A stretch of 31,017 nt of DNA from a virus, in IMG/VR virus record IMGVR_UViG_3300036782_000160, positions 1-31,017 of that record; one strand, 5' to 3'. How positions within the stretch are numbered: position 1 is the first letter of the stretch; each line of letters starts with the position of its first letter. Shown here piece by piece: positions 1 to 10,637 of this stretch. A model generated the notes under the pieces. It did not search any database and was not told where the DNA came from. It saw only the letters and a list, made by a program, of their open reading frames with translations. The translations under genes and the position numbers were made by a program.

Positions 1-1062
1 TTATTGGTTGTTTGAGTCCTGAGGGGGCAGAAAGGGGGCACTTTTTGCCAGGGGGTTAAGCTCTATGGCCTCGTTAAAATGGTTAGGCGCGAAATGCGCA
101 TAACGCATTGTCATCTTAATATCTGTGTGGCCAAGTATGCGCTGCAAAACCAAAATGTTCCCGCCGTTCATCATAAAGTGTGATGCGAAAGTGTGGCGTA
201 ACACGTGCGAAAGTTGGCCGTCTGGCAGCTCAATATCAGCACGCTCTACCGCTTTGCGGAACGCCGAATAACATGACTTAAAGAGCCGCCCTGGTTTTTC
301 TGGTTTCGGTAGCGCGTCATAAAATGCTTTGCTGATTGGTACCGTGCGGTTTCTGTTGCCTTTGGTCTTGAAGAAACTAACCTTGAGGTTTTTGATCTGC
401 TTTGTCGTCAGTGACTCCGCTTCATCCCATCGTGCGCCGGTGGCCAGACAGACGCAGGCCACCCAGAATGTGCTTTCGTTACGGCTGGCTTTGCATTGTT
501 CCAAAAGGCTGCTGATCTCGTCTTGCTCAAGATAAGCCAGCTCCGCTTCTTCAGACTTAAAGGCGCGAACCCCGGAGAGCGGGTTATCAAGCTTCCAGTG
601 GCCGAGGCGTTTTAGTTCATTGAATACGGCGCGGAAATAGGCCAGCTCAAGGTTCATTGTCCTGGGTGATACTTGTTTGACGCGGGTGGTTCGGACGATC
701 TCACCGGACAGGCGCTTTTTTCGGTACAGGGAAAACATGGTTGCATCAAACTCATGCGCCAGCGGTTCCCCCATGCTTGCACAGGCAAACTCCATCGCCC
801 CTTTTCGCTTCTCGCCATCGTCCAGGGTTACGCCGTGTTCGTCGAACCACTGGCCTACCAGCTGGCGCAGAGTGCGCCGATCTTCTTTGCCGTCCAGCCA
901 CGGTTTAACGTGTATGTTTTCAAGGGTGTGGTTCTGGTATGCCAGCGCCTCGCCTTTAGTCGAAAACGTCTTACGAATGCGTTTGCTGGGCTTGCCCTTC
1001 GGTTTCCCCTCCGGGTAAAAGTCCAGTAACCACTTGCCGTCCGGCTGTTTTCTTATGCTCAT
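1..1062 (-). CDS. int: Phage integrase (tyrosine recombinase), P2/186/HP1 type
   Basis: This 353-residue protein is a tyrosine site-specific recombinase that would integrate and excise the prophage. The catalytic set is visible: R211 in TGARWDEA, H286 and R289 in SHVLRHTF, H312 in LGHTD, and the nucleophile Y321 in MRYAHF. The N-terminal ~60 residues resemble the arm-binding domain of P2-family integrases. The stop codon is the first three bases of the window, so the gene is complete but the attachment site expected beyond its 3' end is outside. The ATG start lies only 4 bp after the stop of the upstream cI copy on the same strand, so int can be read from the repressor transcript. The first 11 codons are repeated as a remnant at 1888-1922. 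Confidence 0.96.
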   Translation of the reverse strand: MSIRKQPDGKWLLDFYPEGKPKGKPSKRIRKTFSTKGEALAYQNHTLENIHVKPWLDGKEDRRTLRQLVGQWFDEHGVTLDDGEKRKGAMEFACASMGEPLAHEFDATMFSLYRKKRLSGEIVRTTRVKQVSPRTMNLELAYFRAVFNELKRLGHWKLDNPLSGVRAFKSEEAELAYLEQDEISSLLEQCKASRNESTFWVACVCLATGARWDEAESLTTKQIKNLKVSFFKTKGNRNRTVPISKAFYDALPKPEKPGRLFKSCYSAFRKAVERADIELPDGQLSHVLRHTFASHFMMNGGNILVLQRILGHTDIKMTMRYAHFAPNHFNEAIELNPLAKSAPFLPPQDSNNQ

Positions 1063-1066
1063 ATGC

Positions 1067-1651
1067 TTAGTTGGTAATCGTCATAACAACGCGGCCAATA
1101 ACCTCTATATCATCAAGGCTGCAATCAAAAGCCATCACCACGTCACTCACGCGAACTTTTTTGATAGGGATGCGGGTTAGTGTCCGGACGCTGGTTTTAC
1201 CTTCTATCACCACGAGCCATTCCCCGTCGTACACCTCTGCGAATGTCTGATCGATGATGTACTGGGCTTTCTCATCTTCCACGCATAAAGGATTTGCCGG
1301 GAGGGGAACGCCAGCCCGGAAAAAAACCTTGTCGAACATCACACGGCCCGAGTCGTAAAGCTGGCCATCCACCAATTTTTTGCGCGCAAATTTCATTATG
1401 TCCAGTTCGTCACTTTCAAACTTTTTGCCGCTTCCAGTTGCCAGCCATTCGAGGCTTACCCCAGTTTCAGCCATGCATTTAAGCATGATATCTGCGGGTA
1501 GCCCGCCGCGCTTGTACCGCGAAGAAAGCGAGCTTGCAGCCATATCAAGGTGCTCCGCTAGCTGCATCTTCTGGGTGAAGCCGTAAGCCTCAATGACTCT
1601 ATCTAAAACTGGGGCGCTATCAGTGCCTGGGTCAATTCGGAATCGTGCCAT
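1067..1651 (-). CDS. cI: CI-type immunity repressor, copy 1
   Basis: This 194-residue protein resembles the CI repressor of coliphage 186, which shuts early lytic promoters in a lysogen. Residues ~20-65 form the helix-turn-helix domain (KMQLAEHL, then AASSLSSRYKRG). Residues ~75-194 form the CI C-terminal oligomerisation domain, which is S24-like in fold but has no obvious self-cleavage site. A near twin lies at 1927-2511. The C-terminal ~120 residues differ at only about five positions, while about 18 of the first 73 residues differ. It is divergently oriented from a TTGACA/TAACCT promoter and leads straight into int. Its ribosome site is weak. The family call is firm. Whether it shares DNA targets with copy 2 is not known. 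Confidence 0.93.
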   Translation of the reverse strand: MARFRIDPGTDSAPVLDRVIEAYGFTQKMQLAEHLDMAASSLSSRYKRGGLPADIMLKCMAETGVSLEWLATGSGKKFESDELDIMKFARKKLVDGQLYDSGRVMFDKVFFRAGVPLPANPLCVEDEKAQYIIDQTFAEVYDGEWLVVIEGKTSVRTLTRIPIKKVRVSDVVMAFDCSLDDIEVIGRVVMTITN

Positions 1652-1687
1652 TTGCGATCTTGGTAATTAGAAATTGTCTTAGTGGTG

Positions 1688-1716
1688 TTGACACGTAGAA
1701 AATATCTAAGTAACCT
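1688..1716 (+). promoter_or_regulatory. Early rightward promoter of immunity copy 1
   Basis: A sigma-70 promoter has TTGACA at 1688-1693, a 17-bp spacer and TAACCT at 1711-1716. It lies in the 137-bp control region between cI copy 1 and the truncated cox. The inverted pair CTTAG (around 1679) and CTAAG (around 1706) flanks and overlaps it and could be part of the repressor operator. The same -35, spacing and -10 occur in copy 2, but the spacer sequence is different. It would now drive the truncated Cox and then run antisense into cI copy 2. Confidence 0.7.
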
Positions 1717-1788
1717 AGCTCCTGTTGTTTGCTAATTGCGAATACTGATGAACTTTGCCGAGTTCAAACGAATTGAGGAGTTTGCCTT

Positions 1789-2040
1789 ATGCGTCCTAAC
1801 ATTACAATCACCATCCCTACGCCTTACCTACCTATTGATGAGTACTGCCGCCTGACCGGAACCCCTATGGGAACCGCCCGCGATATTAACCATTTGCCGT
1901 CTGGCTGCTTTCTTATGCTCATGCGCTTAGTTGGTTATCGTCATTACGACGCGGCCAATAACCTCAATATCATCAAGGCCGCAGTCAAAAGCCATCCCCA
2001 CGCCACTTACGCGCACTTTTTTGATAGGGATGCGGGTTAG
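1789..2040 (+). pseudogene. Truncated, chimeric Cox/Apl (copy 1 remnant)
   Basis: The first ~31 codons match the intact Cox at 2646 apart from two residues, including PYLPIDEYCRLTG. At the duplication joint (~1887) the frame passes into reverse-oriented int and cI sequence and continues for ~52 unrelated codons. The Cox recognition part (MVRDGRLPIR and beyond) is missing, so normal Cox activity is unlikely. The ribosome site GAGGAGTTTGCCTT before the ATG is intact, so a peptide may still be made. It overlaps the 3' end of cI copy 2 on the opposite strand. Confidence 0.85.
1888..1922 (-). pseudogene. 5' remnant of integrase in duplicated unit
   Basis: This stretch repeats the first 11 codons of int, with a few base changes, just downstream of cI copy 2. 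It stops at the joint with the truncated cox. It shows that the duplicated unit once sat next to int in the same arrangement as copy 1. It cannot encode a recombinase. Confidence 0.85.
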
Positions 2041-2511
2041 TGTTCGGACGCTGGTTTTACCTTCTATCACCACGAGCCATTCCCCATCGTACACCTCTGT
2101 GAATGTCTGATCGATGATGTACTGGGCTTTCTCATCTTCCACGCATAGAGGATTTGCCGGGAGGGGAACGCCAGCCCGGAAAAAAACCTTATCGAACATC
2201 ACACTGCCCGAGTCGTAAAGCTGGCCATCTACCAGTTTTTTTCGAGCAAATTTCATTATGTCCAGTTCGTCACTTTCAAACTTTTTGCCGCTGCCAGTTG
2301 CCAGCCACTCTAGGCTAGCTCCTGTTTCAGACATGCATTGAACGACTAGATCAGCGGGAAAAACGCCCCTCTTGTAACGGGAGGATAACGAGCTTGCTGC
2401 CATGTTCAGATGTGCTGCAAGTTGCATTTTTTGGGTGAATCCGTACGCCTCAATAATCCGATCAAGTACAGGGGTGCCATCAACAGTTAGCTCAATTTTG
2501 AATCGTGCCAT
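1927..2511 (-). CDS. cI: CI-type immunity repressor, copy 2
   Basis: This second 194-residue CI repressor has the same domain plan as copy 1: HTH at ~20-65 and C-terminal oligomerisation domain at ~75-194. The ATG at 2511 was chosen because it matches the start of copy 1. An upstream in-frame TTG would add seven residues. The stretch AASSLSSRYKRG, which includes the likely recognition helix, is identical in both copies. Residues 5-13, 33, 36, 50-51, 55-58, 61 and 65 differ. With nearly identical C-terminal domains, mixed oligomers of the two repressors are plausible. It is intact, and is opposed by the intact cox/cII operon across the 2512-2645 control region. Confidence 0.93.
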   Translation of the reverse strand: MARFKIELTVDGTPVLDRIIEAYGFTQKMQLAAHLNMAASSLSSRYKRGVFPADLVVQCMSETGASLEWLATGSGKKFESDELDIMKFARKKLVDGQLYDSGSVMFDKVFFRAGVPLPANPLCVEDEKAQYIIDQTFTEVYDGEWLVVIEGKTSVRTLTRIPIKKVRVSGVGMAFDCGLDDIEVIGRVVMTITN

Positions 2512-2544
2512 AGCTAATAGGGGTTTCTGCAATTCTAATTTAAA

Positions 2545-2573
2545 TTGACAATTAAGATTGCGAGAATTAACCT
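2545..2573 (+). promoter_or_regulatory. Early rightward promoter of immunity copy 2
   Basis: TTGACA at 2545-2550, a 17-bp spacer and TAACCT at 2568-2573 form a good sigma-70 promoter for the intact cox-cII-early operon. Around it the arms AATTCT (2531-2536) and AGAATT (2563-2568) form an inverted repeat that could be an operator. The spacer differs from copy 1 while the hexamers are the same. That is what would be expected if operators had diverged around a conserved promoter. Confidence 0.72.
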
Positions 2574-2645
2574 ATCTCCGTTAGTTAGAGTTAAGTGAAT
2601 ATCAATGAGCATTGCCGTGCTCAACTGAACAAAGGAGTTTGCCTG

Positions 2646-2867
2646 ATGCGTCCTAACATTACAATCACCATCCTAACGCCTTACCTTCCTATTGATGAGT
2701 ACTGCCGCCTGACCGGCACCGCTATGGGAACCGCTCGCGATATGGTTCGTGATGGTCGTCTTCCAATCCGTGGCAAAGGGGATAAACCCCGCGCCCGCGT
2801 CGAAATCAACATGGCCGCGCTGACCGTTCAGGCGCTGAGTGAATGCAACATCGCGTTGCAGGCCTGA
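2646..2867 (+). CDS. cox: Cox/Apl family regulator and excisionase
   Basis: This 73-residue protein matches the Cox/Apl family of P2 and 186. These are small winged-helix-like DNA-binding proteins that repress the lysogenic promoter and direct excision with Int. PYLPIDEYCRLTG followed by ARDMVRDGRLPIRGKG is the family's helix-turn-helix and basic wing. The ATG at 2646 was chosen over an upstream one at 2595 because AAAGGAG lies 8 bp ahead of it and because the duplicated copy starts at the same place. It is the first gene of the early operon and is followed 31 bp later by cII. Confidence 0.87.
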   Translation: MRPNITITILTPYLPIDEYCRLTGTAMGTARDMVRDGRLPIRGKGDKPRARVEINMAALTVQALSECNIALQA

Positions 2868-2898
2868 GTTCATCCTAGCGATCACGTTGGAGATAACC

Positions 2899-3402
2899 AT
2901 GTTTTATTATCAGACCTCCATACATTCCCACTTTGATGCAGCTTGCCGGGCATTCGCGCAAGCTAACAACCTGGAAGATGTGGCGTATGCCGTTGGTATG
3001 CGCGTTCAGGTACTTCGCAACAAATTAAACCCAGCCCAACCGCACCGCATGACTGTGGATGAACTGCTGGCCATTACCGATTACACCGAGGATGCCCGCC
3101 TTTTGGATGGGATGCTGGCGCAGATTAACTGCTTGCCTTCGGTGCCGGTGAACAATACTACGGAAAACAACATGCAGCTATGTGCGCTGACCGCCAGCGC
3201 CAGCGTTGGGGCGATTGCCGGGGAAGCTGTATCGCCTGAGAAAATGACCGCTGCGCGTAAAAACGCCATCCTTGACCGTGCAAACGAAGCCATCCGCAGT
3301 ATTTCAATGCTGGTTTACACCGTTGAAGCCCGTTTTCAATCCGCCCCCGTGCTGGCTGCTGCTGTGGATCTCGTCACAGGCAACGCCGCTGGTCTCATGT
3401 GA
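2899..3402 (+). CDS. cII: CII-like regulatory protein (186 CII / CP76 family)
   Basis: This 167-residue protein resembles the 186 CII activator, which promotes establishment of lysogeny by switching on cI transcription. Family landmarks include YDEACRAFA-like FDAACRAFA at ~11-19, RNKLNP at ~39-44, the segment HRMTVDELLAITD, and GMLAQINCLPSVPVN. Residues ~1-65 form the DNA-binding part and the rest is alpha-helical. The ATG at 2899 is preceded by TTGGAGA and was preferred over an upstream start at 2839 that lies inside cox. It belongs to the cox-cII-fil early operon. Confidence 0.88.
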   Translation: MFYYQTSIHSHFDAACRAFAQANNLEDVAYAVGMRVQVLRNKLNPAQPHRMTVDELLAITDYTEDARLLDGMLAQINCLPSVPVNNTTENNMQLCALTASASVGAIAGEAVSPEKMTAARKNAILDRANEAIRSISMLVYTVEARFQSAPVLAAAVDLVTGNAAGLM

Positions 3403-3411
3403 GGGAAAACC

Positions 3412-3612
3412 ATGCACAACAAACCTTTCGTTACTTACCTCAAAAACCAGTCGCCAACGCCGCAGTTTAATGCGCATGGCCACGGCTGGATTGAACTACC
3501 GAATGGCCAACTGTGGAACCCGGCTACCCGGTTCAATTTCGTAGCTAACAAAGCCCGCCGCCCTGGCTGGCGCGCATTCCTGAATCGGATCGGAGGGCTT
3601 TGCCGTGGCTGA
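3412..3612 (+). CDS. fil: Fil-like protein (186 filamentation protein family)
   Basis: This 66-residue protein has the look of the phage 186 Fil family: PFVTYLKNQSPTPQ, then GHGWIELPNGQLWNPA. Fil of 186 inhibits host cell division when expressed. The ATG at 3412 follows GAGGGAAA at the end of cII, so the two genes are closely spaced. It overlaps the next gene by 8 bp. The family assignment is by recall of the sequence pattern. Activity against division is only inferred. Confidence 0.7.
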   Translation: MHNKPFVTYLKNQSPTPQFNAHGHGWIELPNGQLWNPATRFNFVANKARRPGWRAFLNRIGGLCRG

Positions 3613-10123: not shown

Positions 10124-10344
10124 GCGATTTATTCTGGGAAACTATCCAGGCAAAACGTATCGATTTAATGGCGCGCCTTATTACCACGGCGCAAAGTAAG
10201 GAGCAGGAAGATCAGTCAATCGCCCTGGACTGGATTGCTGATATTGCAGGGGAGTTGCGCCAGAAGCTGGAAACATATGTTCATCCCTCACGATCGCATG
10301 ATGACCCTGTATCAGAGAGGAGAGGCAGCGGTCCCCCGCAGTAA
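10120..10344 (+). CDS. Hypothetical small protein
   Basis: This 74-residue acidic, helical protein (SDLFWETIQAKRIDLMARLITTAQS, then SIALDWIADIAGELRQKLETY) is not recognised. GGAG lies 8 bp before the ATG. Its last 33 bp overlap the end of the convergent ogr-like gene. It follows a palindromic operator candidate and may be under control of a prophage regulator. Confidence 0.6.
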   Translation: MSDLFWETIQAKRIDLMARLITTAQSKEQEDQSIALDWIADIAGELRQKLETYVHPSRSHDDPVSERRGSGPPQ

Positions 10345-10587
10345 ATCGAGCATCATCTGTTTTTGCTGTAGATTCATATTGCAGATAACGGTTTTCAGAA
10401 GCTGATCGCCGGTTCTGCCGCTGGGGCTGAGAGTGTGGGAAAACGTCAGATTCAGGACAAACGTATGACCACACTCCACATCCTGACAGGCACAATAAAT
10501 ATCGGCAATATGGCGGTGCTTGCGGTTTGTTTTGCGAATAACAGCTTGAGAGCCGCACTCCGGGCATTCGATTTTTAATACGCGCAT
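10312..10587 (-). CDS. ogr: Ogr/Delta-family late transcription activator (zinc finger)
   Basis: This 91-residue protein carries the Ogr/Delta zinc-binding pattern with C8-x2-C11 and C34-x4-C39 (ECPECG, then ACQDVECGHTF). Ogr of P2 and B of 186 activate the phage late promoters by contacting RNA polymerase alpha. The ATG at 10587 was chosen because AGGAG lies 8 bp upstream. Longer in-frame starts lack a ribosome site. The gene lies 50 bp downstream of the portal gene on the same strand, so it could be carried on the Q-P transcript and reinforce its own production. In P2 ogr lies elsewhere, so this placement is notable. Confidence 0.85.
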   Translation of the reverse strand: MRVLKIECPECGSQAVIRKTNRKHRHIADIYCACQDVECGHTFVLNLTFSHTLSPSGRTGDQLLKTVICNMNLQQKQMMLDLLRGTAASPL

Positions 10588-10637
10588 ATTCCATGCTCCT
10601 GCTGTCAAATAATGCCTGGATTTTAGCCGTTTTTGCC

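Follow-up and report, generated by a model that had tools for sequence, protein, structure and literature searches.

A tandem immunity region with two cI genes of different predicted class in a 186/P2-like prophage

Superinfection immunity is usually drawn as one repressor for one class of phage. The 186/P2-like prophage analyzed here (an IMG/VR virus record; its whole stretch of 31,017 bases is called the window below) carries two cI genes in tandem, and raises the questions of how the second repressor arrived and whether the two differ in specificity. At the immunity region, the closest named relative is Escherichia phage ESSI2_ev015 (Peduoviridae, Quadragintavirus). On the left, the window ends at the stop codon of the integrase gene int (1–1062, minus strand; PF24624, PF00589, phrog_1), the last gene of the lysogenic operon; on the right, it ends inside an IS3/IS1203-type element, so that the record holds no chromosomal flank. 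Searches of plasmids and E. coli genomes gave no useful match. An Ogr/B-like C4 zinc finger gene (10315–10590, minus strand) adjoins the portal gene; in 186, it lies near int.

Two repressor genes in a repeated immunity segment

The locus is ordered int – cI1 – control region 1 – cut cox1 / cut int2 – cI2 – control region 2 – cox2 – cII. Direct repeats and alignment delimit two units (1027–1886 and 1887–2743); the repeated segment of ~860 bp comprises the first int codons, cI, the cI-cox control region, and ~33 cox codons. In unit 1, cox1 (1789–1886, plus strand) retains ~33 Cox codons followed by unrelated residues, and matches phrog_575 over positions 1–32 only. Unit 2 begins with an int remnant, MSIRKQPDGKWL (1887–1922, minus strand), which by alignment represents the first 11–12 codons, and runs into cox2 (2646–2867, plus strand), a complete Cox/Apl-like excisionase-regulator gene (phrog_575, 1–68) followed by a gene for a cII-like activator (2899–3402, plus strand; PF06892). 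With both cox1 and the second int cut so short, true doubling is limited to the repressor and its control region. Coliphage 186 has the same cox/apl–control–cI–int order, with operators at pR and face-to-face pR and pL promoters, but its cI and its control region are each present once. Likewise, ESSI2_ev015 and prophages L002, L003, and L038, whose cox, int, and cI are closely related to those of the window, are single-immunity versions of the locus with one cI each.

The first-pass annotation had described two complete tandem cI genes, and indeed intact open reading frames of 194 aa are present at 1067–1651 (cI1) and 1927–2511 (cI2), both on the minus strand. Each product contains PF07022 and PF16452 at scores far over the cut-off (Phage_CI_repr and Phage_CI_C, respectively: 77.6 and 109.3 bits for CI1, 85.2 and 110.6 bits for CI2), and CI1 matches 2fjr with E = 8e-36. 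The N-terminal HTH domain and the C-terminal oligomerization domain that characterize a 186-type CI are thus found in both proteins, as in 186 CI itself. CI1 belongs to the GLPADIM class and CI2 to the GVFPADLV class. Judged by sequence, both repressors are intact and their immunity classes differ.

CI1 and CI2 are 88% identical, and the differences are concentrated N-terminally, as had been noted before: 18 changes fall in the first 80 residues and 5 in the last 114. Base-by-base alignment of the two units gave a stepped rather than a uniform profile, with DNA identities of 86.5% at the int start (37 nt), 94.2% in the CI C-domain, 75.0% in the N-domain, 54.5% in the control region, and 93.9% at the cox start; the longest stretch common to both units, 47 nt, lies within cI. 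The control regions do share little beyond the promoter hexamers (TTGACA-17-TAACCT in both), as earlier stated. Heterogeneity between segments is very strong (chi2 = 124, p = 1e-26), at odds with the uniform divergence expected of simple tandem duplication.

Origin of the second immunity segment

Synonymous codon changes between cI1 and cI2 are also concentrated in the N-domain (25/80 codons, compared with 15/114 in the C-domain; p = 1.4e-4). The segments therefore differ in age, and duplication followed by drift, already doubted in the first-pass annotation, is rejected. A variant in which one immunity segment was duplicated and its DNA-binding half and operators then diverged fast under selection would account for the similarity of the flanks, since the CI1 and CI2 C-domains are 94% identical to each other and at most 86% identical to those of any other phage found, and since the cox starts are 94% identical. 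Fast protein evolution would, however, raise amino-acid rather than synonymous changes, so the synonymous excess counts against it. Moreover, L003, which has one cI, matches unit 1 in DNA at 97% in the N-domain and at 91% in the control region. Later gene conversion of the flanks could be invoked under duplication, yet two separately evolved modules would still be required. We disfavor this variant and regard it as very improbable.

The same comparisons bear on capture of the immunity segment of a related phage, which had been proposed earlier. The N-domain and control region of unit 1 have their counterpart in L003, but the CI2 N-domain had no close match: in IMG/VR and in genomes from the family (392) and the order (395) of G011, the best N-domain was ~79% identical in protein, and the best DNA match to the unit 2 N-domain was ~77%. 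The int remnant of unit 2 is 97.7% identical to L002 over 43 nt, compared with 86.5% to the intact int1 over 37 nt. Because the two C-domains are nearer to each other than to any phage found, the donors would have been siblings, or the flanks were homogenized later.

At the junction (1886/1887), the cut cox1 is fused to the cut second int, and comparison with the relatives' sequences there revealed no evident microhomology. Hence the capture part of the earlier proposal stands, but its unequal recombination gives way to an illegitimate join between the cox of one phage and the int of another. The best reading, and a well-supported one, is that the second segment was probably captured by illegitimate recombination between sibling phages. 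Exactly the observed order would result if two heteroimmune prophages in tandem lost the DNA between the cox of one and the int of its neighbor, or if the illegitimate join formed in a co-infected cell.

A search for the exact junction 21-mer in other viral contigs returned none, which would also fit an assembly artifact, two co-resident phages having been joined in silico. The right end of the record does stop inside an IS3/IS1203-type element, as short-read contigs do. However, chimeras made by assemblers usually form where k-mers are shared, and this join lacks a shared stretch; other tandem cI arrangements are present in several independent records. We therefore consider an artifact improbable.

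Predicted operators and a proposed double switch

Many related phages have a pR (TTGACA-17-TAAYCT) whose 17-bp spacer forms a dyad; its two 6-bp half-sites vary with the class of the CI N-domain, and this association of CI class with operator class recurs in many relatives. GLPADIM after the helix is paired with TTAGA or TGTAGA half-sites, GVFPADIV with TTCTC/TTCGC, and GLPSDIV with TTCGC/TGCGC. The operators of coliphage 186 are different (e.g., ATTCAC-n5-GTGAAT at FL, FR, and pB in the annotated record). We built a class-A half-site model (TTAGA-n5-TCTAA) from 19 distinct spacers of other phages with CI1-type N-domains, leaving the window out. Across the whole window, it scores highest at CGTAGAAAATATCTAAG (1694–1710; 16.4 bits, 1 in 1000 shuffles), which is the spacer of pR1, and next at ATTAGAAATTGTCTTAG (1666–1682; 11.4 bits), an imperfect site; both are predicted CI1 operators. 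The promoter pR1 (1688–1716, plus strand) was assigned by homology to 186 pR, and pR2 (2545–2573, plus strand) has the same TTGACA-17-TAACCT arrangement. A generic promoter scan missed both, because the -10 element TAACCT is off consensus.

In unit 2, the class-A model scored at best -4.7 bits in control region 2 and -17.8 bits at the pR2 spacer; hence CI1 is not expected to bind pR2 via class-A sites. The pR2 spacer, ATTAAGATTGCGAGAAT (2551–2567), is a weak palindrome and the presumed CI2 operator. A class-B model, the nearest to CI2, scored 2.0 bits there: the right half, GAGAAT, fits, but the left half does not. The late-gene (ogr/B) operator, scanned as a possible indicator of the native CI, contained no class-A site.

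The presumed recognition helix, AASSLSSRYKRG, is identical in CI1 and CI2, from which overlapping specificities had been suggested. As stated, this suggestion did not hold up. The same helix occurs in members of all three operator groups (TTAGA, TTCTC/TTCGC, and TTCGC/TGCGC), so its identity in the two proteins says little about overlap, and only control region 1 contains operators of the CI1 class. As far as operator patterns can tell, the two repressors most likely have different specificities. A helix that is identical across several operator classes makes a direct test of 186-type CI specificity possible.

Two side observations concern the control regions. The best class-B site near the switch lies in unit 1, at the predicted pL1 -10 element (GTTTGCTAATTGCGAAT, 1727–1743; 11.6 bits), and several CI1-class phages retain it. 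The sequence could be a third site for a repressor or simply part of the promoter. The predicted 5' UTRs of cox1 and cox2 each contain a stem-loop on the plus strand (TGAACT-TTGCCG-AGTTCA, 1749–1766, and TGAGCA-TTGCCG-TGCTCA, 2606–2623), 22 nt upstream of the cox start in both units and likewise in many related loci. An Rfam scan of 900–3500 gave no match, for the stem-loop or otherwise. The element was present in 72 control regions across the relatives (24 distinct stem-loop sequences), compared with 10 of 2540 shuffles; its hexaloop TTGCCG is conserved, with variants TTGGCG, TTGCTG, and TTGACG, and its arms vary with complementarity kept. Being independent of CI class, it looks like an RNA element of the pR leader.

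We think it fairly likely that the window contains a natural double-immunity locus, in which the cox of one phage was joined to the int of a sibling with a different immunity module. In a lysogen, CI1 would shut pR1 via TTAGA-n5-TCTAA operators and CI2 would shut pR2 via different ones. No terminator-like site was found on the minus strand from cI2 to control region 1 or on the plus strand from cox1 to cox2. Transcripts from pL2 could thus read cI2, cI1, and int, and those from pR1 could pass antisense through cI2 into cox2-cII, which would place two switches in series, both repressors being required for stable lysogeny. In 186, pR and pL are convergent, and pL is inhibited by pR transcription (PMC7498355). 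Given distinct DNA-binding halves and probably distinct operators, the lysogen is probably immune to two classes of phage, a superinfecting phage of either class being silenced by the repressor of its own class. The C-domain of 186 CI forms a 14-mer wheel, and a hybrid of the lambda N-domain and the 186 C-domain works as a repressor (PMC8053113). Since the 186 C-domain tolerates a foreign N-domain, and since the C-domains of CI1 and CI2 differ at five positions, mixed wheels are plausible by analogy.

Alternatively, with cox1 destroyed, unit 1 may be in decay after a chance join (e.g., of two tandem prophages collapsed at one att site), only unit 2 with cox2 and cII being functional and cI1 a passenger. 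The truncation of both cox1 and the second int, the occurrence of the exact junction so far in this prophage only, and the imperfect upstream CI1 operator would all be consistent with decay. Against it, cI1 is full length, with both domains and two predicted operators of its class, and adjoins int in the lysogenic operon; moreover, an unrepressed pR1 would drive transcription toward cox2-cII, so that CI1 is probably needed. On balance, we consider decay unlikely. In G134, considered as a candidate tandem dilysogen, two prophages lie 24 kb apart; the window structural proteins that were tested had no match in the 13 kb examined between them.

Stacked repressors in related prophages

Lambda strains with two immunity regions were constructed in the laboratory decades ago. 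A literature search, with most subscription journals outside its scope, found no paper on natural double immunity by two cI genes in one phage. Tandemly integrated heteroimmune prophages, such as prophiT36-2a/b, place two repressors of different specificity at one site (PMC9934374); there, however, each phage is complete and has att sites of its own, whereas in the window the immunity segment alone is doubled inside one phage.

All other related viral loci examined have a single cI, except three Yersinia-type prophages (L118–L120, with the host assigned from matches to Yersinia phages). As in the window, the interval from cox to int contains two full-length cI genes that belong to different immunity classes. 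In L118 (3001–4204), the N-domain of cI-a is 98.7% identical to that of phage vB_YenM_324, with an almost identical control region; that of cI-b is 86.5% identical to that of vB_YenM_06.16-2. Unlike in the window, cI-b lies 31 bp downstream of cI-a and has neither a control region nor operators of its own; the vB_YenM_06.16-2 operator pattern (ATTCAC-n5-GTTAAG type) was absent from the L118–L120 loci. By its sequence context, cI-b represents a second class and is an orphan repressor; kept without its operators, it looks like a pure defense gene. The outcome is the same as in the window and both donor classes are known, which again speaks for capture.

A further case is provided by L139 (3933–5818, in bacterial genome G052), where three cI genes in tandem separate cox from int, with pairwise identities of 53–68% in the N-domains and 41–75% in the C-domains. 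Together, the two-cI and three-cI parallels indicate that repressor stacking arose more than once; on this comparative reading, close relatives reach the same stacking in other ways. The main interest of the locus lies in the repeated stacking of immunity repressors. If two or three repressors work, immunity would be broader in such a phage than in its relatives. More tentatively, 186/P2-like prophages might repeatedly accumulate foreign-class repressors in the lysogenic operon, operators included or not, as heritable defense against rival temperate phages. Their near-identical C-domains would let mixed wheels connect the two control regions, and double-HTH CIs might represent a later stage of this trend; we regard this extension as possible, though doubtful.

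Double-headed CI proteins of 281–313 aa were observed in Salmonella phages PSP3 and SW9 and in Klebsiella phages 4LV2017 and ST437-OXA245phi4.2. They contain the CI HTH domain (PF07022) twice and a single C-domain (L147, 2707–3567; L150, 2713–3558; L146, 2626–3567; and L060, 2429–3364).
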